A stretch of 64,000 nucleotides of DNA. It comes from Gymnodinialimonas sp. 202GB13-11 (GTDB lineage Bacteria; Pseudomonadota; Alphaproteobacteria; Rhodobacterales; Rhodobacteraceae). The notes beneath the pieces are model-generated. The model was not told where the DNA came from. It did not search any database and was given only the letters and a program-made list of their open reading frames with translations. The position numbers and the translations under genes are program-made. The stretch spans positions 1,798,001 to 1,862,000 of the forward strand of contig NZ_JBFRBH010000001.1 in assembly GCF_040932485.1 (NCBI RefSeq). The letters are read 5' to 3'. Below are positions 4,537 through 22,590 of the stretch, piece after piece (within the stretch, counting starts at the first letter, position 1; each line of letters opens with the position of its first letter).

Positions 4537-4986
4537 ATGCTATTGCGCGCCGTACTTCTTCTGTCCCTGACCTTGTCCGTTGCGGCTTGCGGCGACAATC
4601 GGTTGAACCCGTTCAATTGGTTCGGAAATGACCGCGAGCAACGTGTGCGCGTTGACCCGGACGCAGCCGCCGGAACGCCGTCTGATCCGCGCAGCTTAGT
4701 CTCTGAAATTACACAGCTTTCTGTCGAACAAACGACTTCCGGCGCAATCCTGCGCGCCACGGGCGTGACCCCCGTCCAGGGATATTTCGATGCGGAACTG
4801 GTACTGGCAGAGATCAACAATGGCGCGATCGTATTCGAGTTCCGCGCCGCGCCTCCGGTCGGTCAACCCACCCCTGGGCTACAGACCATCGTTGCAGGCG
4901 TGGACTTGACGAATGGAGAGCTTGCCGGCATCCGCTCCATCACCGTCATTGGTGCAAATAATCGTCGCAGCGTTTCACGTCGCTGA
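4537..4986 (+). CDS. Putative lipoprotein of unknown function
   Basis: A 149-residue product with a short N-terminal signal ending in the lipobox LSVAAC, so Cys18 is the predicted lipidated residue after signal peptidase II cleavage. The remainder is a soluble, mostly beta-like domain without a motif I can name. AAAGGG lies seven bases before the ATG and supports this start. It diverges from sufE with a 142-bp shared upstream region and converges on rnd. Similar small lipoproteins sit beside sufE or rnd in other Rhodobacterales, so a cell-envelope role is plausible but unproven. Confidence 0.75.
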   Translation: MLLRAVLLLSLTLSVAACGDNRLNPFNWFGNDREQRVRVDPDAAAGTPSDPRSLVSEITQLSVEQTTSGAILRATGVTPVQGYFDAELVLAEINNGAIVFEFRAAPPVGQPTPGLQTIVAGVDLTNGELAGIRSITVIGANNRRSVSRR

Positions 4987-5025
4987 CATGAACTTCGCCG
5001 CATAAGCAACTGAGATCATTCATCT

Positions 5026-6186
5026 TCAGACGGCGACGATTTTGACCTTTTGACCTTTGGCGGAGAGCGCAACTTCACCGTTCAGCAGGCGTTCAGCATC
5101 TGCCCCGAATACCTCGCGCCGCCATCCCGACGACCAGACGCCATCCGTGTGACCCGAGGCGATATCGTCCAAATCGCTTGAAGATGCGATCAACTTGGGC
5201 GCAACGCCAGCCTCTTCGGCCTTCGCCTTCAGCAAGACCCGTAACAGATCCGCAAGCGCCGGGTTCAGGTTCGACCTGTCCTTGCCTTGCACAGGCTTCG
5301 GCACATCCGAGTTCGGCACCGCAAGGCCACGCGCAACGGCCTCGATCAGTCCTTCAGCAATCGCGCCTTTGCGGGCGTCCCGCAGGAGCAATCGAGATTT
5401 TCCAAGATCTTTCAGGGACTTCGGCTTCGTCCCCGCAATCTCCATCAGGGCGTCGTCCTTTAGAACCCGGTTGCGCGGGATGTTGCGCTCCTGCGCGTAG
5501 GTCTCCCGGAACGCCGCCAATTCGCGTGCGATGGCAACCATCCGGCCCGAATTCGAACGCAGCTTTAATCGCCGCCACGCCTCCTCCGGCTTAACCACGT
5601 AATTCCCTGCATCGGTCAACTGCGCGAGCTCTTCCTCAAGCCAATGCGTGCGACCAGTCTTTGCCAATTCTGCGGAAAGATGTTCGTAGATTTGCCGAAG
5701 ATGCGTGACATCCGCGATAGCATAGGTCTTTTGAGCATCGCTCAACGGGCGACGTGACCAGTCGGTAAACCGGCTTGATTTATCGAGAGACGCCTTCGCG
5801 ATCTTGCGCACAAGTGTCTCGTACCCAACCTGATCCCCAAAGCCGCAAACCATCGCAGCAACCTGAGTGTCAAAAAGGGGCGTTGGCACCACATTGCCTT
5901 CTACGTGAAAGATCTCAAGATCCTGCCGCGCGGCGTGGAAGACTTTGACAACATTGGTGTTTTTGAACAGCTCATAAAGTGGTTCAAGCGACATGCCATC
6001 GGCCAGCGGATCGATAAGAACCGCGTCGCTTTCATCCTCTCCGGGCAGGGCAACCTGCACCAGACACAGTTGTGCAAAATAGGTGCGTTCCCGCAGGAAT
6101 TCCGTGTCTACGGTGACGTACGGCACCTCGGCTGCGCGATTGCAAAAGGCTGCAAGTTCATCGGTTGTGGTCAGTGTTGTGGGCAC
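5026..6186 (-). CDS. rnd: Ribonuclease D
   Basis: A 3'-5' exoribonuclease of the DEDD superfamily, involved in tRNA 3' maturation. With the GTG start at 6186 the protein is 386 residues and begins MPTTLTTTDELAAFC, matching the family start. An ATG at 6246 would add 20 atypical residues. Exo motif I is TVDTEFLRERTY (Asp27, Glu29), motif II is FHAARQDLEIF and motif III YAIADVTHLRQIY, so all four acidic ligands and the Tyr are present. The C-terminal part contains the HRDC-type helical domain. It converges with the lipoprotein gene and lies about 155 bp downstream of purN on the same strand. Confidence 0.9.
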   Translation of the reverse strand: MPTTLTTTDELAAFCNRAAEVPYVTVDTEFLRERTYFAQLCLVQVALPGEDESDAVLIDPLADGMSLEPLYELFKNTNVVKVFHAARQDLEIFHVEGNVVPTPLFDTQVAAMVCGFGDQVGYETLVRKIAKASLDKSSRFTDWSRRPLSDAQKTYAIADVTHLRQIYEHLSAELAKTGRTHWLEEELAQLTDAGNYVVKPEEAWRRLKLRSNSGRMVAIARELAAFRETYAQERNIPRNRVLKDDALMEIAGTKPKSLKDLGKSRLLLRDARKGAIAEGLIEAVARGLAVPNSDVPKPVQGKDRSNLNPALADLLRVLLKAKAEEAGVAPKLIASSSDLDDIASGHTDGVWSSGWRREVFGADAERLLNGEVALSAKGQKVKIVAV

Positions 6187-11601: not shown

Positions 11602-12513
11602 ATGTGCAAGAGAAAGGGCGCCCTCACCGTGCCACATGACATTCTTCGACCCGGCCTTCGCCGTGTGACGGCCCCTAACCCATCCCCAATGACCTTCAAC
11701 GGAACGCAAACCTATTTGCTGGGGGAAGGCGATGTGGTGGTCATCGACCCGGGCCCTGCCCTTCCCGGCCATCACGACGCCCTTCTGGAGGCCCTCGCCC
11801 CCGGGGAACGCGTGGTGCAGATCCTCGTGACACACTCCCATCTCGACCATTCGCCCTTGGCCGCCCCACTGGCGCAAACCACCGGGGCGCCCGTTCTGGC
11901 CGCCGGTCCGTCAGAGTGGGGGCGTCGTCCGGTCATGCAAAGGCTTGCGGAGAGCGGGATGCTTGGAGGGGGCGAAGGCGTGGATACGACGTTCGCGCCG
12001 GACGAGCGAATAGCGCAAGGCGAACAGATCACCGGCGCGTGGGGTAGCATCGAGGTTTTGGAAACCCCCGGCCACATGGCAAATCACCTGAGCTTTGCAT
12101 GGGAGGACGCTCTGTTTTCAGGGGATCTTGTCATGGGTTGGTCAACATCGCTCGTGTCACCACCCGATGGCGATATGACCGCGTTTTTTGCCTCAGTTGA
12201 GCACCTGGCGTCCCGCACGGCCGATCGGGTCTACTATCCTGGCCATGGCGACCCAGTCGTGGATCCGGTCGTTCGGTGCCGGGAATTGCTTGAGCATCGG
12301 CGTGGACGTGAAGCGCAGATCTTGGACGCGCTTAAGAAAAACGGAGAGGCAGATGCAGCGACCTTGGCAGCACGCATCTATACTGACATCGCGCCAGCCC
12401 TTCTACCGGCGGCTGCGCGCAACGTTCTCGCGCATCTTATAGATTTGTCCGACCGGGGAGTGATTGAAGCAGATGGTCCGATCACATCAACCACCCACTT
12501 TTTGCTCGAGTGA
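11602..12513 (+). CDS. MBL-fold metal-dependent hydrolase (LACTB2-like)
   Basis: About 303 residues with the metallo-beta-lactamase signature THSHLDHS near residue 76. Downstream metal ligands are seen in ETPGHMANHLSF, FSGDLVMG and YYPGHGDPV. The C-terminal winged-helix-like stretch (residues 235-295) is typical of the LACTB2 and beta-lactamase-like hydrolase branch. Known relatives include RNases and thioesterases, so the substrate is open. The start is uncertain: an in-frame GTG at 11629 would shorten the protein by nine residues. It diverges from the histidine kinase and is followed 57 bp later by tRNA-Asn. Confidence 0.85.
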   Translation: MCKRKGALTVPHDILRPGLRRVTAPNPSPMTFNGTQTYLLGEGDVVVIDPGPALPGHHDALLEALAPGERVVQILVTHSHLDHSPLAAPLAQTTGAPVLAAGPSEWGRRPVMQRLAESGMLGGGEGVDTTFAPDERIAQGEQITGAWGSIEVLETPGHMANHLSFAWEDALFSGDLVMGWSTSLVSPPDGDMTAFFASVEHLASRTADRVYYPGHGDPVVDPVVRCRELLEHRRGREAQILDALKKNGEADAATLAARIYTDIAPALLPAAARNVLAHLIDLSDRGVIEADGPITSTTHFLLE

Positions 12514-12570
12514 ATTTTTCCGATTCCCCCACTGGACGACCCAAAATCGCCTTGCTATATGCGCCTCAGT

Positions 12571-12645
12571 TCCGGCGTAGCTCAGCGGTAGAGCAGTTGA
12601 CTGTTAATCAATTGGTCGTAGGTTCGATCCCTACCGCCGGAGCCA
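12571..12645 (+). tRNA. tRNA-Asn (GTT)
   Basis: A 75-nt cloverleaf with encoded CCA. The acceptor stem is TCCGGCG/CGCCGGA, the D-stem GCTC/GAGC, the anticodon loop CTGTTAA (GTT) and the T-loop TTCGATC. Its 3' 45 bases and one following base are the attachment core of the downstream element and are restored exactly by the integration, so the tRNA remains intact. Confidence 0.97.
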
Positions 12646-12646
12646 A
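12601..12646 (+). repeat. Left attachment site (attL core, 46 bp)
   Basis: It starts at CTGTTAATCA in the anticodon loop of tRNA-Asn and ends one base past CCA. All 46 bases are identical to 21314-21359, and the flanking bases differ on both sides. Confidence 0.95.
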
Positions 12647-13044
12647 ATTTCCCTAATATAATAAACTCTTAGCCTAAATGTCGGTCCGTGCTTCTTCCGT
12701 CTTCGGATACTTCGGAAGCACTGCGGAAGCACTAGCACGAAGATTTTGACCGTGGTTCCTATGCCACAGAGATCGATTTCCTGAAGTCGAGCGTGGCACG
12801 CATGCCGGCCGCACCTACCCTCGCTTCGCTCGGCGCGTCTCACGCGCGGGGTGTCGGTCGGCTGGCAATTGGACCGCTAGCTTGGAGCCCGAGGGGACCA
12901 TTCGCCATGGCCCCCTTCTCGATCCCCCTAGGCACTGCCCGATAGGAGGAAGGGAAGCTAGCGGCCCTAAGCCGACATCGAGCCCTAGTTTAAACTACCG
13001 CGTTCGCAGCCCGCATTGCAGACCTTCTTCTGATAGCACTTCAA
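12647..13044. other. Non-coding left end of the element
   Basis: About 400 bp with no convincing gene. It holds the left arm-type repeats (12711-12732) and a 10-bp inverted repeat, CCGCTAGCTT at 12874-12883 against AAGCTAGCGG at 12955-12964, enclosing 71 bases that can form smaller internal hairpins. Given the replication initiator on the element, this structured stretch is a candidate replication origin or regulatory region; that is inference. Confidence 0.5.
12711..12732 (+). repeat. Arm-type tandem repeat, left end
   Basis: TTCGGAAGCACTGCGGAAGCAC contains CGGAAGCAC twice with an 11-bp period. It matches 21162-21183 at 21 of 22 positions, in the same orientation. The placement, 64 bp inside the left core, suits integrase arm-binding sites. 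Confidence 0.7.
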
Positions 13045-13527
13045 TCATGAAATTGTGGGGTTGCTGGCCCCATACCATGCCCTGATGGTTCTCGTCAGCG
13101 TTGACAGCGCAAAACCTCGGCTCATACGCATATCAAGCGAGGCGAAGTGTTCGGCGAACTTCACAGCGTCTTCCCCCAAAGCTGTGAATTCAAAACGACC
13201 GCCTAAATACTCATCATCTGGGTCATAGCCAACAACGCGCCAATTGCCGATGATCTCCCCGTCGCGAGTTATGACATCGCCTTGCGACAACTTGGGGTCG
13301 TACCCGCTGTTCATCCACTCATCGTGGCCAACAGAATTTATGGGGTAAGTGTATTCCATGGCAGGCAGAATAAGCTGTCCACTTGTTTGCGCAAGCCAAT
13401 CAAACGCGCGATGGATATGCAGACCCGATGGATGCACTAATCTCGAACCACTGCGCCGTTGCCCGGCGCGCCTTGGCACCATATGTTGTGGCATGTCCCA
13501 CAGCCGTCGCAGCATGGGGCCCGGCAC
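13045..13527 (-). CDS. Element-encoded protein of unknown function
   Basis: A frame of 160 residues. The part from about residue 30 onward reads as a plausible soluble protein (HIHRAFDWLAQTSGQLILP, then GDVITRDGEIIGNWRVVGYD), while the first 30 residues are Arg-rich and may not be translated. A shorter start at 13359 (MEYTYPINSVG) would give 104 residues. The middle contains Asp- and Gly-rich turns suggesting a beta-rich fold; no family was recognised. It diverges from the 1316-residue nuclease gene. With the longest start only 19 bp separate them, which argues for the shorter start to leave room for a promoter. It could be an accessory or control partner. Confidence 0.5.
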   Translation of the reverse strand: MPGPMLRRLWDMPQHMVPRRAGQRRSGSRLVHPSGLHIHRAFDWLAQTSGQLILPAMEYTYPINSVGHDEWMNSGYDPKLSQGDVITRDGEIIGNWRVVGYDPDDEYLGGRFEFTALGEDAVKFAEHFASLDMRMSRGFALSTLTRTIRAWYGASNPTIS

Positions 13528-13546
13528 CCTCTAAGCGAGTACAGTA

Positions 13547-16500
13547 ATGTCCCTATCCAATCGCTCACTGCCGAAGCCCGAAAATTGGCAGGATTTCGAG
13601 CACCATGCCTGGTTGTTGTTTAGGTCTGAGCTTAACGATCCAGCCACTGAAAAGAATGGCAGGCAAGGCCAAGCTCAACACGGCGTTGACGTCTACGGCA
13701 GAAGAGATTGCAAGCATTGGGTCGGTGTTCAGTGTAAGCAAAAAATGGATGAAGCTGTAACTGAAACTGAACTTCGTGACGAAGTTGAGAAAGCGAAATC
13801 GTTCTCACCGAAAATCAAAGAGTACATTCTCGTTACTACAGCTCGTCGCGATGCTGCCATCCAAAAAGCGGCTAGGGAAATCACGGAGGAACTTGCAGGT
13901 ACAGACCATGGCTTCTCTGTTTCTGTTTGGGGATGGGATCAATTCCAAGAGCACGCTTCTCTACATTCCGATGTTTGGGAGCAGATCGACCCTACATACG
14001 ATCCGTTTTCAAAGAGGGGCCTTGAACAGGTCGCCGTGAAGATTGATGAGGTGAAAGACCTCGTTACATCTGCTTTGCCGGATGCCCAGAATGATCTTCG
14101 TCCGCCTCGCTTCGACGCTCAGGCGGAAAATGAAAGCTCTCCTCGACATACGAAGATCACGATCTTCGTGGAGATGATAGAAAATGGCAATTTAGAAATA
14201 GGCCGCACCGGTCTGGCTGATTTGAAAGAAACGGATTGGGAATCTGCTACTTCATCAGAGAAGTATCGAGTTCTGATTGGCCTTGCTTCAGCCGCATTGA
14301 AGATGGGGGCCGACAACGAGGCGCACTCACTAATAGAGCGCGCCTACGACATTTGCCCAGAACACAAGTCTGCAAAGAGGAATCTTGCGACGTCAAAGTT
14401 GTTGCGGGGCGAGTACGATCAAGCGAGGAAGTTGGCAGGAGAGGCAGTACATGCGCGACCTGATGACCACATCGCTGCAGCCGTGCTCGTTCAAGCTCGA
14501 AGCTTCTTTCCAGCCGATGATCTGTTGGAGGGGCTTTCGAAGAATGTGCAAGGCAAGTCGGCTGTAAAGGCGGCTTTGTGTCAGGCCTATCGAAATCGCG
14601 ATGACGCAGATTGGCTTACGTTGGCAGTCGATGCGTACCAGTCCGACCAATCCGATGACCAGATTCGTTTGAACTGGGCGGAGGCTGTTCTGGAGCTTGA
14701 AATCCAGAACAATGCGAAAAGCGCGCTAGGTGGCATCAGTGTATTTCCTAGCTTTCAGGACCTGAATTCCGCTGCCGAAGAACTATACCAGGCGTGTGTT
14801 TCGAGACGATCACGATTTTCCTTGGCTACAATCCACAATGCAGGATTGGCCCTGCGCCTTGTTGATCGTAACGACGAGGCCAAACAGGTATTGGAAATGG
14901 GGCTCTCCCTTTGCGCTGGGGAGCCTTCGATATCGCTTCAGCTAGCCATAATCGCCCATGAGGATCGAGACTTCGGCAGAATCCTTGAGCTTCTCGACGA
15001 GGACAGTGAGCACCCTGAGGTCATTTCGCTAAGAACTGAGGCGATGGCTCACATACTGAGCCCGTCAGACGCGTTAGAAGCAATTGATCGCATTGATACG
15101 ACGCACTGGTCCGAAGAACACCGTCTGATGCTGCTTTCGTCTGAGCTGACCTCCCTTTCGGAAGTGGGAGATTGGCCCACGGCAATCAAGAGATGTGGGC
15201 AGGGCATTGCGGAAAACCCGGACTCACTTCGTTTCAATATAGTATTGGCTAGGGTGCTTCGCATAAGCGGGGACGGTGAAGCGGCGGTTTCTCATCTTGA
15301 TGAGATTGTAGCCGATCTTTCGCCGGATGCCACGATGGCGGAACGGGTCGAAATCTCCACAGAATACAGACAGCTTGGTAGCCATGACCCAATCGTGTCC
15401 TTGCTAGAGGATCAGGTTTCAACACAACACGACAGTGAAGCGCTTCGGTTACTGCTTAGCGCCCTGATTTCCGGTCAAAAGCATCGTGGGGCGTTAAATC
15501 TTTTTAATGCCTTCCCGCCAGAACTATCAAATGATGAGTGGTACCTTCGCGCAAGATCAATCCTAGCGATCAATTCTGGCGCTGCGGATATTGAGAACCA
15601 CCTTAACGCCTACCTTCGGGTCGAACCCAACGACTTAGAAATGCAAATCTCGAGGCTGGGGTTGTGGCAACTGCAAGGTCGCGAAAATGAAATCCGACAG
15701 AAACTGCGAACTTTTGAGAAGAAAATTCCTGACGGTAACTCGCTGGAACGTATGCGCCTCTGTCACCTTGCCGTCCAGTACGGCAACAGAAAGTGGGGAG
15801 TAGATACAGCCTATCAGGAGTTGATTTCAAACTGGGATGATCCGGCCATACATCTTGCTTATCAAGGCCTTATCCTGATGTATGATCACTTGGAGGACGC
15901 AATCCCTAAGTCCACGACGATACAAGAGAATTGCGTTTTCGAGGCAATGTCCAGTGATGGTGTTCGACGCGCTCGTATTGAAGGAACAAACGCTCACAAT
16001 TTTGAGGCTGAAAGACACGCGCCGACCAGCGAATTCGCGAAGGCCTGCATTGGCAAAACAGTAGGCGAGAAGTTCGTTATCGCCACTCAGTATGAAAGCA
16101 TCGAGTTCGAGGTCTTGTGGATCAAGCCGCGAGCCCTCGACCTTCTGCACAAGTCACTAGAGGAATTCAACAAGAGGTTCCCGACGAACTCAGGTATGCA
16201 GCGAATGACCTTTGACTTCCAAGCCGACAATCCTCTCGCCGACATGGACCGTATCACGAAGGCAGCACATGATCGCGACCAATCCGTTTTGGACAATTAC
16301 GCTGCAAACGCACTCCCATTCTGTTTTGTTGCTGAAGCGCTTGGGAAGGACGTAATTGACGGTTGGGCGGGCCTTCCTGGAGTAGGTATCCAGCCGCGTG
16401 TCTGTATTGGCAGTCGCGATGAGCGCAACAATGCAATCAAGGAAATCCAGTCCAAAGCCGAAAGTGGGTGCGTACTTGACCCGATCACCGCCGCTCTGGC

Positions 16501-17497
16501 TTCGGACTTTCATCTTTGGGAAATCATTTCGAAAGTCTGCGGCCCAATTCACGTAACTCAATCAACGCTGGAGTTCTTTGCAAAACGGGAAATTGAGTCA
16601 AAGAACAACATCGACCGGCGATCCGGAATAACATCTTGGCAAGACGGTCGTTTCACGATGATTGAGGTTACGCCTGAGCACAACCAAATCGACTTCGAAG
16701 TCAAGAAACGTCAACGCGAAGACGTTCTAGCTCACTGCAAAATCGCTAGTTCAGTTCCGCAGGCCGATCTAGAAGGCCAAAACCTTGAGATATCTGAGGT
16801 TTTAGGCTCGTCGGCGAGAGACAGTGTCTTGGCGGCTGAAGGGAATGGTTTGCTGCTGCTATCAGAGGATCAAGGATTGCGACAATGGGCGGCAGCCGCG
16901 CTTGGGGTCGGCTCGAGTTGGCTACAGCCAGTTCTGCTGCTTGCCAAAGATCGAGGCTTAGTTTCGATTGAGGATTACACCAAATTCATCGTTGACTGCC
17001 TGGACCGCGACTTCACTTACGTGTCAATGGACTCGCAAACTTTGCTCACCCAAGCCAAAGCGGATGGGTTCAGCGCGCAAAACACCGTGAAGCGGATGTT
17101 GGAAGTGGTTGGCGGGAAGAACGCAGACTTGGAAACCAACATTGATGTCGCTGCTCTTTTCCTTGACTTAGTTTTTCATGAAACAAAGCAAGAGCACCTG
17201 CGAGACCGGTACGCAAGTCTAGTTCTGGAAGCATTCTGTGCACCACGTAGGGATAATGCGGTCGAGGTCGTAAAGTTGCTGACCGCGCAGGTTTCCATTC
17301 GCGTGTTCAATTTGATTGAGCACGCCTTTTGGTGGCTTGTTGGTCGAGAGCTTGGAACGCCGGATTTCCATCAACAAGTTAAAGAAGCTAAGAAATCTCA
17401 GCTACAGCGGCCAGTTTCACTTCCTCCTACCATTCGGTTTCTTGTGACGGGGAAGACTAGGCTCCTCGGTTCATGCTTCCCAAACCAAACCTTCTAA
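13547..17497 (+). CDS. REase-like / TPR / GreAB-C-like / PIN multidomain protein, predicted defence effector
   Basis: A 1316-residue protein. Residues 10-130 look like a PD-(D/E)XK nuclease: LPKPENWQDFE, then NGRQGQAQHGVDVYG (Asp48) and GVQCKQK (Gln62, Lys64), with the strand KEYILVTTA. Residues about 205-790 are repeated helical pairs of TPR type. Residues about 810-865 contain HAPTSEFAKACIGKTVGEKF, resembling the FKBP-like C-terminal domain of GreA/GreB. Residues about 975-1150 look like a PIN nuclease (Asp978, Glu1009, and LLLLSEDQGLRQWA with Asp1108). From memory, a TPR-GreAB-C-PIN architecture has been predicted computationally as a conflict system. Here it is fused to a second nuclease and is the main cargo of a tRNA-integrated element. 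Codon use is AT-richer than in the flanking core genes. The function is inferred, not shown. Confidence 0.8.
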   Translation: MSLSNRSLPKPENWQDFEHHAWLLFRSELNDPATEKNGRQGQAQHGVDVYGRRDCKHWVGVQCKQKMDEAVTETELRDEVEKAKSFSPKIKEYILVTTARRDAAIQKAAREITEELAGTDHGFSVSVWGWDQFQEHASLHSDVWEQIDPTYDPFSKRGLEQVAVKIDEVKDLVTSALPDAQNDLRPPRFDAQAENESSPRHTKITIFVEMIENGNLEIGRTGLADLKETDWESATSSEKYRVLIGLASAALKMGADNEAHSLIERAYDICPEHKSAKRNLATSKLLRGEYDQARKLAGEAVHARPDDHIAAAVLVQARSFFPADDLLEGLSKNVQGKSAVKAALCQAYRNRDDADWLTLAVDAYQSDQSDDQIRLNWAEAVLELEIQNNAKSALGGISVFPSFQDLNSAAEELYQACVSRRSRFSLATIHNAGLALRLVDRNDEAKQVLEMGLSLCAGEPSISLQLAIIAHEDRDFGRILELLDEDSEHPEVISLRTEAMAHILSPSDALEAIDRIDTTHWSEEHRLMLLSSELTSLSEVGDWPTAIKRCGQGIAENPDSLRFNIVLARVLRISGDGEAAVSHLDEIVADLSPDATMAERVEISTEYRQLGSHDPIVSLLEDQVSTQHDSEALRLLLSALISGQKHRGALNLFNAFPPELSNDEWYLRARSILAINSGAADIENHLNAYLRVEPNDLEMQISRLGLWQLQGRENEIRQKLRTFEKKIPDGNSLERMRLCHLAVQYGNRKWGVDTAYQELISNWDDPAIHLAYQGLILMYDHLEDAIPKSTTIQENCVFEAMSSDGVRRARIEGTNAHNFEAERHAPTSEFAKACIGKTVGEKFVIATQYESIEFEVLWIKPRALDLLHKSLEEFNKRFPTNSGMQRMTFDFQADNPLADMDRITKAAHDRDQSVLDNYAANALPFCFVAEALGKDVIDGWAGLPGVGIQPRVCIGSRDERNNAIKEIQSKAESGCVLDPITAALASDFHLWEIISKVCGPIHVTQSTLEFFAKREIESKNNIDRRSGITSWQDGRFTMIEVTPEHNQIDFEVKKRQREDVLAHCKIASSVPQADLEGQNLEISEVLGSSARDSVLAAEGNGLLLLSEDQGLRQWAAAALGVGSSWLQPVLLLAKDRGLVSIEDYTKFIVDCLDRDFTYVSMDSQTLLTQAKADGFSAQNTVKRMLEVVGGKNADLETNIDVAALFLDLVFHETKQEHLRDRYASLVLEAFCAPRRDNAVEVVKLLTAQVSIRVFNLIEHAFWWLVGRELGTPDFHQQVKEAKKSQLQRPVSLPPTIRFLVTGKTRLLGSCFPNQTF

Positions 17498-17571
17498 TGG
17501 TGGCGTGAACGTCCGCTTTTCAACCTGCCAATTCGCAGTGCGCGCGTGCAGCGAACTGCCGCTTCGCGCCC

Positions 17572-18726
17572 CTACGTACTCAGCAACGCGCCATACTTCT
17601 TTTTTGCATCCCTAAGGCGATCCGCAATCGACCGCGGGCTTTGTTCGACACAAGCTTGTAGACGCCACGGTAAGTCTTCCAGAAAAGCATCGATGTCCGA
17701 AGCTGTAACGCCTTCAAGTGCTGCAAAAGTGATCGCATGCCCAGCAGTTAGTTTCAAAAACTCGTTCTGCTTATACCGTAAATCTTCCGCCGTAAGAGCG
17801 ACCTCATCAATTTCGACCTCATGCTCGAATAACTCGTTTGACAATACATCGCGTAGAACTTCCCAGTTTGCGTGAACGGTCCAATCCGTGCGGTCGGCTG
17901 TTTCTGATGGCACACGCAACTCAATGTCTTGGGTGAGCTTCTGCAACTCACCAGCTAGACTGGAGTAGAGACTAGCCCAACCTTTGATCCTTGCCCGGTC
18001 ACGCAGGGCGCGTTTAGCCAACCGAAACTCAGTTCTCCAAACCCGGCTTCCTGCAGGATCGGAGTAATCGAACGCCGGTTGTCCCAAGCGTTCCATGGCC
18101 TCGTCCCAAATGAAGAACCAATCCAACTTGTTCTTCGCCAACGCTTCCTCGCGCTTATCGTAGACGATGACCTGTCTTCCCGGCATCTTTCCGAAGGTTG
18201 CGGACGAGACACGTCCGGATCGACCGTTTACACGCGCATCCGATAATTCGAGGTATGTACTACTCTTAGTTTGCGAGTGCGTTACGAAGTCGTATGGGTC
18301 AAGAACGAAGCTAGGGTCATGGAAATCGATGGCATAGTCGACGCGTCGGATACTCACCCCATCGTTTGGAACCGCGCAGCCGAGGGCGTCTAGCATCATG
18401 TCGATATCCTCGCGGACGTAGTCGATTCCCTTCATTGCAAGCGGACGCGCACGACTTGAATACGCGAGACCCCAAGGATCCTTCGCGTTTGGTTTCTTTA
18501 TGGTCCAGATACCTCGGCACCGACCTGCATCGAGCACGAAAGCGTAGCCACCAATACCACCAGAGGGACCAACCTCGAAGCGTGCACCGTTTAGATCAAT
18601 GCCTACACTTTGCTTGACGGCCTCGGCCTCATTTTTGGCGGACTCAAGTCGCGCAACCAGCTCCGGCGAGATCGCTGATCTGAACGATATATCTAGCCCA
18701 TCAAAGCCTGAATGAAGAATGATCAT
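17572..18726 (-). CDS. Replication initiation factor (Rep_trans-like)
   Basis: 384 residues from the ATG at 18726 (MIILHSGFDGLDISF). The segment DGVSIRRVDYAIDFHD, near residue 120-136, and VIVYDKREEALAK, about 225-238, match the pattern of rolling-circle initiators of the Rep_trans family, where a Tyr nicks the origin. Such proteins occur on plasmids, filamentous phages and integrative elements. The 43 extra residues of a longer frame to 18855 come from a GC-rich non-conserved stretch and are rejected. It suggests that the excised element can replicate. It is convergent with the large nuclease gene, about 75 bp apart. Confidence 0.75.
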   Translation of the reverse strand: MIILHSGFDGLDISFRSAISPELVARLESAKNEAEAVKQSVGIDLNGARFEVGPSGGIGGYAFVLDAGRCRGIWTIKKPNAKDPWGLAYSSRARPLAMKGIDYVREDIDMMLDALGCAVPNDGVSIRRVDYAIDFHDPSFVLDPYDFVTHSQTKSSTYLELSDARVNGRSGRVSSATFGKMPGRQVIVYDKREEALAKNKLDWFFIWDEAMERLGQPAFDYSDPAGSRVWRTEFRLAKRALRDRARIKGWASLYSSLAGELQKLTQDIELRVPSETADRTDWTVHANWEVLRDVLSNELFEHEVEIDEVALTAEDLRYKQNEFLKLTAGHAITFAALEGVTASDIDAFLEDLPWRLQACVEQSPRSIADRLRDAKKKYGALLST

Positions 18727-18756
18727 TGGGTGATTGTCCTTGCTAGGTTTCTGAGA

Positions 18757-18777
18757 GGGGGTGTTACATAAACCCCC
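18757..18777 (-). other. Hairpin in the rep leader
   Basis: GGGGGT and ACCCCC form a 6-bp stem about 30 bases upstream of the rep start codon. It may be a translational or transcriptional control element for the initiator. There is no further support. Confidence 0.3.
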
Positions 18778-18876
18778 TTTGGGGCCTTGAGCGCCGCGCT
18801 TGGCCGCACACCGCACGCCCCGCCTGACGGCGGCAGCGCGCGGTCGCGCGTCCAATCTGAGCGGGTGTGAGGCAGA

Positions 18877-19110
18877 TCATTGGGAGGTACTGCCCTTCCG
18901 ACGGGAATCGACCCAAGCAAGGACGTCAGATCGGCGGTACCGCACTGAACGTCCAAGCTTGAAAAACTCCGGTCCCTGTCCAGTTACGCGCCATTTCTGG
19001 ATTGTGCGAACTGAATGGCAGATAAGATCAGCCACAGCGTGCTCGTCGAGTAGGCCTTGCGGATCAGATCCAGAGGGTGACGCGATGCTTCCATCCATTT
19101 GACGCTCCAT
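18877..19110 (-). CDS. AlpA-like MerR/HTH_17 DNA-binding protein, candidate excisionase
   Basis: 77 residues with a single winged-helix DNA-binding domain: LLDEHAVADLICHSVRTIQK followed by FFKLGRSVRYRRSDVLAWVD. This is the pattern of AlpA and phage excisionase-type regulators. A second ATG at 19098 would remove four residues. Lying between rep and the integrase operon, it probably governs excision, integrase expression or rep expression. Excisionases of this type commonly accompany tRNA-targeting tyrosine integrases. Confidence 0.8.
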   Translation of the reverse strand: MERQMDGSIASPSGSDPQGLLDEHAVADLICHSVRTIQKWRVTGQGPEFFKLGRSVRYRRSDVLAWVDSRRKGSTSQ

Positions 19111-19194
19111 TGCGATTGCGATGGGGCGAACCTAGTAAGCGCGGTTTTGAAAATCGCTTGAAACCGTACGCGAAATTACTTGGTGCGGAGGAGA

Positions 19195-19950
19195 CTAATT
19201 CTGTAAGTTCTTGGCTTTGCGATGGAATTCCAAAAAGCTCCTAAGCTTGTTTATGGTTTCGCGTTCGGTTTGATCGGGATCCAACGGCCTGAACGCGGCC
19301 ACGCAAAACCGCGCGGCATCAGAAATGGCGCCACCTGCTTTGGCATCGTAGGTGAAATCGCGTCGCAGAGTAGAACACCACATGGATGCGATTGACCGCA
19401 CCCATTCGTTGAACGCCAGGTCGCGCTTAGGGCCCGGTTTTCCACGAAACTGACCCTCCAGTAGCTCGACGATGTAAGCGCGCTCCGCCAGCGCATCAAG
19501 AATCGCAACTATCTCGGAGATAGAAGCTGAGTGAGGCTGGAAACTCGGCCCGGTCTCCACTGAGAGCCTGATCTCATACAGGCTCCAATCGTCGAGTAGC
19601 TCTCCGCGTACCTCATATTTGTTTGGGCCTTCGTCAAACCATTGCGGTGCCTCGCCCAGGCTTCTCCACACTTCTTCCGGCAAGGATTTGAGCTTTTCGC
19701 TCGTAGCGCTGAGATCCGCGCCGATCCTTGCGAGAGCTTGTCTGATCGATGAGACTTGGCTTTGGTCGCGGGCGCGCCACTCGTGCCATCTTTGACCTGC
19801 GATCTGCAACTCGCGCGCGAACTGCTCAGTCAATTCGACCGGAACGTCAAATTCTGTCGTGATGTCTTGAAGCTGCGCCTCCGAGTAGAAGTCTATCAAC
19901 CTCGCCTCGTCCGCTGCTTCGTATTCGCGATCCCGATACTGCCCAATCAT
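19195..19950 (-). CDS. Element-encoded protein of unknown function, co-translated with the integrase
   Basis: 251 residues, mostly helical and acidic, with no signal peptide or membrane segment and no family I can name. The middle has WHEWRARDQSQVSSIRQALA and the C-terminal half has AFNEWVRSIASMWCSTLRRDF. The ATG lies in a 4-bp overlap with the integrase stop codon, so it is made together with the integrase. Comparable short proteins after integrase genes are common in Rhodobacterales islands. It could be a recombination accessory factor or unrelated cargo. Confidence 0.7.
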   Translation of the reverse strand: MIGQYRDREYEAADEARLIDFYSEAQLQDITTEFDVPVELTEQFARELQIAGQRWHEWRARDQSQVSSIRQALARIGADLSATSEKLKSLPEEVWRSLGEAPQWFDEGPNKYEVRGELLDDWSLYEIRLSVETGPSFQPHSASISEIVAILDALAERAYIVELLEGQFRGKPGPKRDLAFNEWVRSIASMWCSTLRRDFTYDAKAGGAISDAARFCVAAFRPLDPDQTERETINKLRSFLEFHRKAKNLQN

Positions 19951-21131
19951 GAAACGACCCTCAGCTGGGGGCCGTTAGATCGACGGCCCATTGCGTTAGC
20001 CAGCCTGCCTGCAACCGAACCCGCCGCCCTTTGCACCGCCTCGTCCGCAAAATGGGCATAGCGTAGCGTGGTCTGCAGATTCCGGTGGCCCATGATCTCT
20101 TTCAACAAGAACGGATCAATCCCACTCATCACTGCAACGCTGGCGTAGGTATGGCGCAAATCGTGCATCCTTACGTCATCGAGGCCCGCTGCGTGTTTCA
20201 CTCTTATCCAAGTCTTCTGCAGGTTCACGAGATGTCCGTCGGGCTTTTCACCGAGGATCACGTATGGGTTCCCTTCCATGCGCGGTAAAGATATCAGGAT
20301 GTCATACGCTTCACGCGGCAGCGGTATGCGCCGCCGCCCAGTCTTGCTGTCCGGCAACTCGAGGTGATGCGGCGTCACGTAATCCCATTGCAGCGTTAGG
20401 ATTTCACTGAGGCGGCAACCCGTCAGGATCAATAGCGAAATCGCGGCGACCGCGTATTGGGTTTCCTCACCGCTTTCCAAAACGTCGGCCAATACTTGTC
20501 CCAGGCGGGCTTGTTCGTCTTCGGACAGATACCGCTTTTTTTCTTCTTCGCGGAACTTGCGGATGCGGCGCGCTGGATTGGAACCATCTCGGCGCAGCCC
20601 CCAATCCTCGGCCAGGTTAAACATCTTCGAAAGCATCGCCACACACCGGTTCGCTGTATAGGGACGGTCCCGGAGGTCGTGATGAAACGCCACCACATCG
20701 GCCCGCGTAACATCTCCGATCTTGCGGCTGCCGAAGTGCGGTCTGACGCAGTTGTTGACGTAGGCTTTGTAGGCTTTCTGCGTCGTCGGCTTACAGTGAT
20801 GCGCCACATATTCGGTCAGGAACCGATCACACAGCGACGCCACGGTCGGTTCACGATGTTTCCGCCGCCGATCCTCCGCCGGGTTTTCACCTCGAGCAAC
20901 GTCTCCCAATAGCTTTCTTGCCTCAGCACGGGCTTGGTCCGCCGTTAGGACGCCGTGGGGGCCAATGGTACGCCGCCGAGACCGCCCGCCTGCCCGGTAT
21001 TGCACGAGGTAGGATTTTCGGCCCGATGGCATCACGCGAAGACCGAAACCGGACAAGTCTTTGTCCCAGACAAAGTACTCGTTTGCGGTGACTTCCAACT
21101 GTTCGACGGATCGCTTTGTGAGCCTCTTCAT
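19947..21131 (-). CDS. int: Tyrosine recombinase/integrase
   Basis: 394 residues from the ATG at 21131 (MKRLTKRSVEQLEV). Residues 1-90 form the DUF4102-type arm-binding domain (FGLRVMPSGRKSYLVQYR), 95-190 the core-binding SAM-like domain, and 200-375 the catalytic domain. All catalytic residues are visible: Arg240 in TGCRLSEIL, Lys263, His323 and Arg326 in HDLRHTYA, His349 in GHRNLQTTLRYAH and the nucleophile Tyr358. The family integrates into tRNA 3' ends, consistent with the duplicated tRNA-Asn end 183 bp upstream of its start. The right arm-type repeat begins 30 bp before the ATG, so binding there could also repress int. Confidence 0.95.
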   Translation of the reverse strand: MKRLTKRSVEQLEVTANEYFVWDKDLSGFGLRVMPSGRKSYLVQYRAGGRSRRRTIGPHGVLTADQARAEARKLLGDVARGENPAEDRRRKHREPTVASLCDRFLTEYVAHHCKPTTQKAYKAYVNNCVRPHFGSRKIGDVTRADVVAFHHDLRDRPYTANRCVAMLSKMFNLAEDWGLRRDGSNPARRIRKFREEEKKRYLSEDEQARLGQVLADVLESGEETQYAVAAISLLILTGCRLSEILTLQWDYVTPHHLELPDSKTGRRRIPLPREAYDILISLPRMEGNPYVILGEKPDGHLVNLQKTWIRVKHAAGLDDVRMHDLRHTYASVAVMSGIDPFLLKEIMGHRNLQTTLRYAHFADEAVQRAAGSVAGRLANAMGRRSNGPQLRVVS

Positions 21132-21161
21132 CGCATCTACCCTCGCTTCTCTACCGTTCAT

Positions 21162-21183
21162 TTCGGAAGCACTACGGAAGCAC
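21162..21183 (+). repeat. Arm-type tandem repeat, right end
   Basis: TTCGGAAGCACTACGGAAGCAC, with CGGAAGCAC twice at an 11-bp period, one mismatch from the left copy. It sits 130 bp inside the right core and in the integrase promoter region. Confidence 0.7.
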
Positions 21184-21313
21184 CAGAACCGAAAAACTAG
21201 GGTATTGGGTGGGACAGGATCGCACTGACCGTCAACAGAAAAACGTTTCCTTACATGTATTTACCGCAAAACAGCGCAACCGGGCGAAAGCCGTCGAAAT
21301 CGACTTCTGGCCT

Positions 21314-21359
21314 CTGTTAATCAATTGGTCGTAGGTTCGATCCCTACCGCCGGAGCCAA
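21314..21359 (+). repeat. Right attachment site (attR core, 46 bp)
   Basis: An exact duplicate of the tRNA-Asn 3' part. It lacks the 5' half of the tRNA, so it is not a second tRNA gene. It marks the right border of the element. Confidence 0.95.
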
Positions 21360-21415
21360 TATCCCAACGATCCCAATCGCGATGGCAGTGCCTCTTTCCG
21401 ATGTAAATGGGCTGT

Positions 21416-21441
21416 GTTTTCGGTGAAGGAACACCGGAAAC
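21416..21441. terminator. Hairpin downstream of the M20 deacylase gene
   Basis: GTTTTCGGTG and CACCGGAAAC pair over 10 bp (one G-T) around AAGGAA. It lies 22 bp past the stop codon of the minus-strand operon and just outside attR. There is no clear T-tract on the minus strand. It may end the catabolic operon or shield it from the element. Confidence 0.45.
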
Positions 21442-21462
21442 TGACGATGCTTTGAGCATTTT

Positions 21463-22590
21463 TCAGAGCTCTTCCACCAAACGCTCCAGCAGATCATCGC
21501 AAGCTGACAGCTGACTTTCCAGAATGAACTCGTCAGCTTTGTGACCCTGCCCCTCCATCAAACCCGGCCCGCACACCAACGTGGGCACGCCCATCCCGCT
21601 CAGCAGCCCGGCTTCGGTTCCAAAAGCAACTTTGATAGGAGCACTTTGCGTTTTGAGAACAACATCCTGTACCCAGCTTTGGTTACGGGCAACCTCAAGT
21701 CCTGGGTAGGAGTTGGTGATCTCAACCGTCGCGCGCGCAGCATGTGCGCCCTCGTTGAAGCGTTCAGCGAACGCGGCAACCTGTTTATTCAACAGCGTCA
21801 TATCCTGATCGGCAAGGTTGCGGATTTCGAACCGCATTTCGGCTTCGGCAGGCACAACGTTCAAGGCCATTCCGCCAGACAATTTCCCCACATGCACTGT
21901 GCTGTAGGGAATATCATATGCAGCGTCGAACGGCCCGACCTTTGAAAACTCGTCCTGCAACACCCTGAGATCAGACATGAAATCGGCCGCGAGGTGCAAG
22001 GCGTTCCGGAATTTGGGGGCCAATGCCGAATGTCCAGCCTCGCCCGTGAAGGTGGCCTTGTACGCGGTCTTGCCCTTATGGCCGGTTGCAACCTGCATTT
22101 GCGTCGGTTCCCCCACGATACACAGCGCGGGTGGGCGCAATAGTGGCGCGAGGTCCGGTTGCATTTGCTGCAAACCGACACAGCCAATTTCTTCATCATA
22201 GGACAACAGGATCGCTAGCGGGCGGTGAAGCCTTTCAGCATCCACTCGCGCCGCCAAAGCCAAGGCAGAGGCGACAAAACCTTTCATGTCGGTTGTGCCG
22301 CGACCAAACAATTTGTCTTTCTCAGTGGTCAGTCGAAATGGGGGCCGTGTCCAGGTTTGGCCTTCCACCGGAACGACATCCGTGTGAGCGGAAAGAAGCA
22401 GGCCGCCTTCTCCCTCCGGCCCAATCTCTGCGTATAGGCCCGCTTTCAGCCCGCATGGAGATGGGATCCGTGAAACCCGGAAACCGTTGGATTTCAGAAA
22501 TGCTTCCACAAATGAAATCAAGGGAAGGTTGCTTTGAGCACTTACGGTCTCAAAAGAGATCAGCCGGTCGAGTAGTTCAAGCGTCTTCAC
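21463..22590 (-). CDS. M20 family deacylase, ArgE/DapE type
   Basis: 375 residues of the M20 zinc peptidase family. The metal-binding segments are LLLSAHTDVVPV, FGRGTTDMKGF and SYDEEIGCVG (general-base Glu followed by a metal-binding Glu), with GEPTQMQVATGHKG entering the dimerisation domain. It resembles acetylornithine deacetylase, yet its place as the last gene of a catabolic operon with oxygenases and RidA suggests removal of an N-acyl group from a catabolic intermediate rather than arginine synthesis. The start overlaps the LysR stop codon by four bases. Confidence 0.85.
   Translation of the reverse strand: MKTLELLDRLISFETVSAQSNLPLISFVEAFLKSNGFRVSRIPSPCGLKAGLYAEIGPEGEGGLLLSAHTDVVPVEGQTWTRPPFRLTTEKDKLFGRGTTDMKGFVASALALAARVDAERLHRPLAILLSYDEEIGCVGLQQMQPDLAPLLRPPALCIVGEPTQMQVATGHKGKTAYKATFTGEAGHSALAPKFRNALHLAADFMSDLRVLQDEFSKVGPFDAAYDIPYSTVHVGKLSGGMALNVVPAEAEMRFEIRNLADQDMTLLNKQVAAFAERFNEGAHAARATVEITNSYPGLEVARNQSWVQDVVLKTQSAPIKVAFGTEAGLLSGMGVPTLVCGPGLMEGQGHKADEFILESQLSACDDLLERLVEEL

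Follow-up and report, generated by a model that had tools for sequence, protein, structure and literature searches.

In this study, we performed a computational analysis of a 64,000-nucleotide stretch of the genome of Gymnodinialimonas sp. 202GB13-11 (contig NZ_JBFRBH010000001.1, positions 1,798,001 to 1,862,000; hereafter the window, in whose numbering its features are given), and in particular of a gene whose 1316-aa product joins a predicted Mrr-type PD-(D/E)XK restriction endonuclease (REase) domain to a TPR region, a GreA/B-C-like domain and a PIN domain. Our analyses suggested that this is probably a stand-alone TPR-GreA/B-C-PIN anti-invader gene with an Mrr-type REase effector, carried as exchangeable cargo by a small element at a tRNA-Asn gene; for its identity and its defence role taken together, our confidence is marginally higher. 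Labels such as L022 and G385 denote the loci and genomes used for comparison. The gene and its domains are placed as follows.

13547..17497, plus strand: REase-TPR-GreA/B-C-PIN gene, 1316 aa, ATG start
13568..13966, plus strand: Mrr-type PD-(D/E)XK nuclease domain, residues 8-140; predicted catalytic D48, Q62 and K64, with E18 in helix 1
14162..15901, plus strand: TPR region, residues 206-785, the protein's least conserved part
15932..16132, plus strand: GreA/B-C-like (FKBP-like) domain, residues 796-862
16367..16936, plus strand: PIN domain, residues 941-1130; predicted catalytic D978, E1009, D1092 and D1108

The open reading frame (ORF) translation of 13547-17497 is intact, with zero internal stops. 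An earlier note on this DNA, made from the letters alone, had described a PD-(D/E)XK-like start with D48 and QCK at 62-64, a TPR-like middle, a GreA/GreB C-terminal-like segment and a PIN-like end, in a gene AT-richer than its surroundings that would be the main cargo of a tRNA-integrated element. D48, Q62-C63-K64, HAPTSEFAKACIGKTVG and LLLLSEDQGLRQWA were all found in the 1316-aa protein, and the evidence set out below bears out each of these descriptions. The GC content of the gene (0.510) is below that of all 241 same-length stretches sampled along the window.

The REase domain gave an AlphaFold2 model with a mean predicted local distance difference test score (pLDDT) of 92.7, and a PDB search with this model placed nucleases at every rank from 1 to 11 (best E 2.7e-3), among them R.BspD6I2, EcoO109I, Cdn1, Can2, HindIII and MUS81, which we take to be of the PD-(D/E)XK/ERCC4 type. 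D48, Q62 and K64 were invariant, and E18 was present in at least 90% of rows, in an alignment of 63 proteins comprising the window protein and 62 of 82 listed REase stretches (20 were omitted for thinning). The window N-terminus searched alone against Pfam gave no Mrr match; among its relatives, REase domains gave matches to Mrr_cat or Mrr_cat_2 that lie above the Pfam cut-off in three (L061, L063 and L099) and below it in the others. That this Mrr-type domain acts on DNA is probable. Several Pfam TPR models match the middle of the protein (TPR_19, E 1.3e-10; TPR_14, E 1.7e-10), with the repeats preceding the GreA/B-C domain and giving the order TPR-Gre-PIN. The GreA_GreB model PF01272 aligned to residues 798-860 with E 0.0012 and 19.2 bits (cut-off 26.9), which is below threshold for the 1316-aa protein alone; the assignment becomes significant because 17 of 20 family members match the same model at E<=1 (best 1.5e-7) and a 20-row GreA/B-C profile run against the PDB sequences picks out GreB (E 2.8e-6) as well as GreA (E 1.2e-5). 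GreA, Gfh1 and GreB structures also top the PDB list of the C-terminal model (pLDDT 81.4; best E 1.1e-3). The PIN-TPR-GreABC model PF20698 matches residues 976-1117 (E 2.8e-16; 60.5 bits, cut-off 27.8) and is found in 20 of 20 relatives.

Relatives of the protein are spread over genomes and plasmids. At least 101 were confirmed among at least 592 pattern matches in the genome collection, the best 80 of which were used; 55 plasmid records also gave a match, which in 9 covers 80% or more at a single place, and 67 pattern matches in viral contigs yielded one relative (L102). With that single viral-contig relative and one N-terminal match in the phage collection, a phage origin of the gene finds no support. 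In its own family, 16 of 295 genomes gave a match at E<=0.001, and five (G000, G564, G481, G540 and G443) were counted as the same gene family, a count judged by match length and position, with some of the five cut at contig ends; the others are single-domain or repeat matches. The closest relative among the matches listed is L022 of Litoreibacter halocynthiae (92% protein identity), followed by L023 at 35%, which comes from a Syntrophaceae bin of another phylum and groups with 100/100 support in the tree; its assignment is possibly a binning error.

Conservation was measured on 39 distinct full-length proteins, after two duplicates had been dropped and split, short or incomplete copies excluded. 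Most of them retain the two predicted active sites: D48 and Q62 in 39/39 and K64 in 36/39 for the REase; D978 in 39/39, an acid at 1009 in 36/39 (missing in L024, L037 and L047), D1092 in 36/39 plus two Glu (missing in L102) and D1108 in 38/39 plus one Glu for PIN. Purifying selection acts in every domain, as dN/dS against L022 is 0.108 for the whole gene and 0.05-0.14 for each part. These data also bear on an alternative in which the protein is mainly a restriction-like or abortive DNA nuclease, with the REase as main weapon and the TPR-GreA/B-C-PIN portion as sensor and switch. The REase is indeed the most conserved part, with a median pairwise identity of 38.5% over 741 pairs against 23.1 and 20.5% in the TPR halves, 26.5% in Gre, 24.9% in PIN and 21.2% in the C-terminus. 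Homologous domains also occur on the REase-SAVED protein L050, with the same D..QxK pattern (SAVED, E 2.8e-39), on L048 and L082, and on L012 and L046, which match nSTAND weakly; there the REase is probably the effector, and the comparison suggests that it is a widely reused defence effector. However, the PIN acids are conserved as strongly as the REase residues, PIN dN/dS (0.098) stands beside 0.088 for the REase, and L019 and L020 keep GreA/B-C-PIN without the Mrr-type REase, and we regard a mainly DNA-cutting protein as the less likely reading. As a separate observation, L048 and L082, whose REase is joined to HTH_upst_double_PIN and PF20698 domains, represent a sister architecture where a recognised GreA/B-C domain is absent.

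The earlier note had further held that the fused N-terminal REase is what makes this version notable, and here the counts disagree. PF20698 was found at E<=0.001 in 14 of 398 genomes of the phylum sample, 10 of them above the Pfam cut-off, and nine of these ten members, the window protein included, carry the REase, L153 being the one without it; the fusion is the common form in the Pseudomonadota sample. Of the 385 genomes in the class sample, 3 gave PF20698 at E<=0.001, and the two other matches (L159 and L160, with frames of 1411 and 2072 aa) contain the REase, while searches of both with the Gre and PIN profiles found nothing. L019 and L020, which have another N-terminus instead of the REase, fall among REase-bearing rows of the tree on partly supported branches (89/84 and 94/91), and this placement suggests effector exchange; two of the four tree rows labelled REase-less, L021 and L034, are broken copies. 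The same patchy distribution of PF20698 (3/385 class genomes, 14/398 phylum genomes), together with the mobility of the carriers, plasmids included, makes it highly improbable that the protein is a housekeeping RNA-surveillance factor on RNA polymerase, although a GreA/B-C domain joined to PIN would suit transcript quality control.

The gene is carried by an 8.7-kb element that spans 12601-21359 and consists of the following features.

12571..12645, plus strand: tRNA-Asn(GTT), integration site at the element's left end
12601..12646, plus strand: attL-like copy of a 46-bp direct repeat, in the 3' part of tRNA-Asn
12962..17543, no strand: exchangeable cargo block, both ends being the limits of DNA identity to L022
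17572..18855, minus strand: replication-initiator-like (Rep-like) protein, related to Pf1 orf430
18877..19110, minus strand: helix-turn-helix (HTH)/excisionase-like protein
19195..19950, minus strand: 251-aa backbone protein, function not assigned
19947..21161, minus strand: tyrosine integrase
21314..21359, plus strand: attR-like copy of the 46-bp direct repeat

The two 46-bp repeats are exact, and the GC content of the element is 0.536 against 0.601 in the rest of the window. All 13 genomes examined in the genus have the tRNA-Asn with its upstream gene, and four, counting the window genome, have a further att copy; among seven congener regions examined at this tRNA-Asn, three are occupied and four have one att copy. 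As a right-flank probe (21360-21900) matched the window genome only among the 13, the empty site is read from the single att copies of these four congeners and not from both flanks. Two comparisons delimit the cargo. L022 shares exactly 12962-17543 (89.4% DNA identity) in another setting with no tRNA, and L130 shares the flanks, 17547-21366 at 93.8% and 12495-12958 at 79.4%; the gene therefore lies in a block exchanged as a unit, at whose 3' junction a shared repeat was not obvious by eye. In L130 the slot holds an 802-aa protein whose first part matches LmuA, with matches of kinase type following it, the N-terminus being read as SIR2-like from its residues. At the same tRNA-Asn, L132 has a related backbone and carries GajA (E 2.8e-268) and GajB (E 1e-233), i.e., Gabija, and L131 (G385) differs in its integrase and contains a match to AbiZ (E 1.6e-10). 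Adjoining that match in L131 lies a 331-aa protein (4717-5709, minus strand) with an HLHG stretch, which we read as a putative HUH-type Rep.

By its Rep-like protein, the element can be assigned to a family of small tRNA-integrated elements that have a slot for cargo. The protein aligns with orf430 of the filamentous phage Pf1 at 26% identity over 255 aa (E 2e-4); the profile score is 32.6 bits, and none of 200 shuffles exceeds 1.1. In Pf-like phage records orf430 is annotated as a replication initiation protein; a Rep_trans reading was rejected, with a weak Pfam E of 0.18 and no PDB match, the Pf1 match being better. A search of 394 genomes of the family gave relatives at E<=0.001 in 31, at 41 places, some with in-frame stops. 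We examined 20 of these places (L195-L214), and direct repeats of 20 bp or longer occur in 17 regions, in 15 of them at a tRNA gene, with a spacing of 5.9-9.9 kb (median 8.1); no such repeat was found in L205, L207 and L209, and an integrase was unrecognised in some of the 20 regions. One hand-picked cargo protein per region (two of L199) was compared with PADLOC at E<=1e-5 in 19 regions, L209 being left outside as it looks rearranged. A PADLOC model was matched in 13 of the 19 related elements. In ten of these the model is of a named type, namely type I methyltransferase (L196), type IIG (L198, L207, L210), AriA/PtuA-like with AriB (L199), Dsr1 (L200), cytosine methyltransferase (L201), dCTPase (L202), ThsB (L203) and AbiU (L206), and in the other three (L204, L205, L213) it is a candidate model or a less specific one. 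The sole background for these matches comes from the window element, none of whose four backbone proteins matches a model. A second element of the family lies in the same genome at tRNA-Thr (L195, C1:1054423-1068700). Among the literature matches listed, we did not find a description of this element family; the marine mobile elements of PMC12324425, archaeal and without a replication gene in the available text, are a different thing.

Defence genes are also found near several plasmid-borne relatives. At 6 of 16 plasmid loci (L006, L007, L010, L016, L018 and L019), a SIR2, TIR, Shedu, CBASS or Abi product name occurs within 6 kb, and L006 and L007 have in addition a Gabija-like pair of an ATP-dependent endonuclease and a UvrD helicase. 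The neighbours vary among the 16 loci, the gene standing alone with no constant partner. With related elements carrying other defence cargoes in this slot and several relatives having defence genes nearby, the defence role is well supported by context, and the occupied slot offers support that is independent of the protein itself, as well as a route to further defence genes by position.

One small gene of the cargo block deserves separate consideration.

13045..13359, minus strand: 104-aa conserved ORF, a plasmid passenger gene and not a consistent partner

With this divergent ORF as antitoxin, the gene could act in addiction (as a toxin-antitoxin gene) and so stabilise its element. Such a role would suit a gene that encodes two nuclease domains with toxic potential and sits in an integrated element, and the 104-aa protein is also conserved next to the L022 gene (87.5%) and next to the REase-less TPR-GreA/B-C-PIN gene of L019 (78.8%). 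However, among the loci compared these are the only strong matches, most family members being without the ORF, and in four other plasmid records with the 104-aa gene, the stretches examined held nothing that the four domain profiles (GreA/B-C, PIN, TPR, REase) match at E<=0.1. Its context is mostly other plasmid genes, so the ORF was rejected as an antitoxin or obligate partner, and an addiction gene is very improbable. The 104-aa gene follows a hypothetical-XRE-DUF3892 gene row in 3 of 5 plasmid records.

For an anti-invader protein of this architecture, we propose the following course of action. The TPR region would keep the protein off until invasion frees it from this restraint. The GreA/B-C domain may then dock on RNA polymerase at the secondary channel, a step to which we give slightly less than an even chance, and the docked domain would let the PIN domain cut the transcript. 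The REase would cut DNA, either the invader's or the host's own, as a second or lethal blow. The docking, both cleavage activities and every step of this course are inferred, and the same holds for the GreA/B-C domain as a putative sensor of foreign transcription, which the earlier note, the available part of PMC8195603 and this analysis alike propose by inference. The broadest form of the proposal joins a two-nuclease immune machine docked on RNA polymerase, with PIN cutting the transcript and the REase the template or genome, to a family, hitherto without a name, of tRNA-integrated elements of 6-10 kb within one alphaproteobacterial family, which would have a Pf1-like initiator and no recognised coat genes and would carry one exchangeable defence system each; in this joint form it is tentative, and we hold it to be rather less probable than the docking step by itself.

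Several results weigh against the defence reading or against parts of it. First, no PADLOC-DB 2.0.0 family matches the 1316-aa protein at E<=0.1, and the PDB searches with the REase model and the C-terminal model gave zero matches at E<=0.001. A PIN structure is absent among the 50 listed PDB matches of the multi-domain C-terminal model, the PIN part not having been searched alone, and the PIN domain is accordingly identified from its Pfam match and its conserved residues. Second, K64 is replaced by Arg in L009, L010 and L151 (3/39), in which the REase may be inactive. Third, the context is uneven: at 10 of 16 plasmid loci no neighbour with such a product name was seen within 6 kb, and 6 of 19 cargo proteins (L195, L197, L208, L211, L212 and L214) were unmatched by PADLOC at E<=1e-5. 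The counts of cargoes and neighbours have no control rate, with one cargo hand-picked per element, and the methyltransferase models of PADLOC match many enzymes. The unmatched cargo of L195 (5580-8810, minus strand; 1077 aa) counts on this side too, and is at the same time a candidate for an unknown defence gene. L211 (6017-8263, minus strand; 749 aa), L212 (5349-6998, minus strand; 550 aa) and L214 (5209-10149, minus strand; 1647 aa) hold unmatched slot cargoes that are further defence-gene candidates by position; if the elements are indeed a family of defence vehicles, these and the L195 cargo become candidate new defence genes.

The earlier note had proposed a candidate new defence system and had referred to an in silico prediction of the TPR-GreAB-C-PIN architecture as a conflict system. 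Such a prediction has indeed been published (Kaur, Iyer, Burroughs and Aravind, 2021; PMC8195603), and the available part of that paper names the REase among 13 exchangeable N-terminal effectors and predicts counter-invader activity with action on RNA polymerase. The defence setting thus stands, with slot cargoes and plasmid neighbours in its favour, and the claim of newness falls: the architecture is already known, and the new part is the genomic context. Beyond what the available part of PMC8195603 contains, our analysis adds that the REase is the usual effector in the Pseudomonadota sample, the slowest-evolving part and of the Mrr type, and that the gene sits in an exchangeable slot of a tRNA element. 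The system is not mentioned in the available text of PMC7159879 and PMC10907252, and the PIN systems of DefensePredictor (PMC13092281), one with a split PIN and one two-gene, are not shown in its available text to belong to this family. Literature searches, with subscription papers and bioRxiv preprints mostly outside their scope, did not find an experimental test of TPR-GreA/B-C-PIN proteins. As an intact and conserved single-gene member with two mappable active sites, the window gene makes the in silico prediction testable by point mutants.

SAVED is a sensor of cyclic oligonucleotides. The window protein resembles the CBASS-type REase-SAVED protein L050 in its homologous N-terminal REase with the D..QxK pattern; in L050 and the other users of this REase the sensor half is SAVED, STAND-like or double-PIN, whereas here it is TPR-GreA/B-C-PIN. 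Its FKBP-like domain is like the C-terminal domain of GreA, GreB and Gfh1, as the GreB profile match indicates, but an equivalent of the N-terminal Gre coiled coil was not seen on inspection of the domain map, and the domain is fused to TPR and PIN. With the system described in the available part of PMC8195603, the protein shares the TPR, GreA/B-C and PIN core, the exchangeable N-terminal effector and the lack of a constant partner gene; the archetype there has EAD10 at its N-terminus, in contrast to the Mrr-type REase here. The carrier is similar to the defence hotspots of P2 and P4 as portrayed in the available part of PMC9122126, where small mobile elements likewise offer a slot to antiviral systems that can be exchanged. 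This likeness is one of description; as a difference, the backbone here consists of an integrase, a protein of ~250 aa, an HTH protein and a Pf1-like initiator, within one alphaproteobacterial family.

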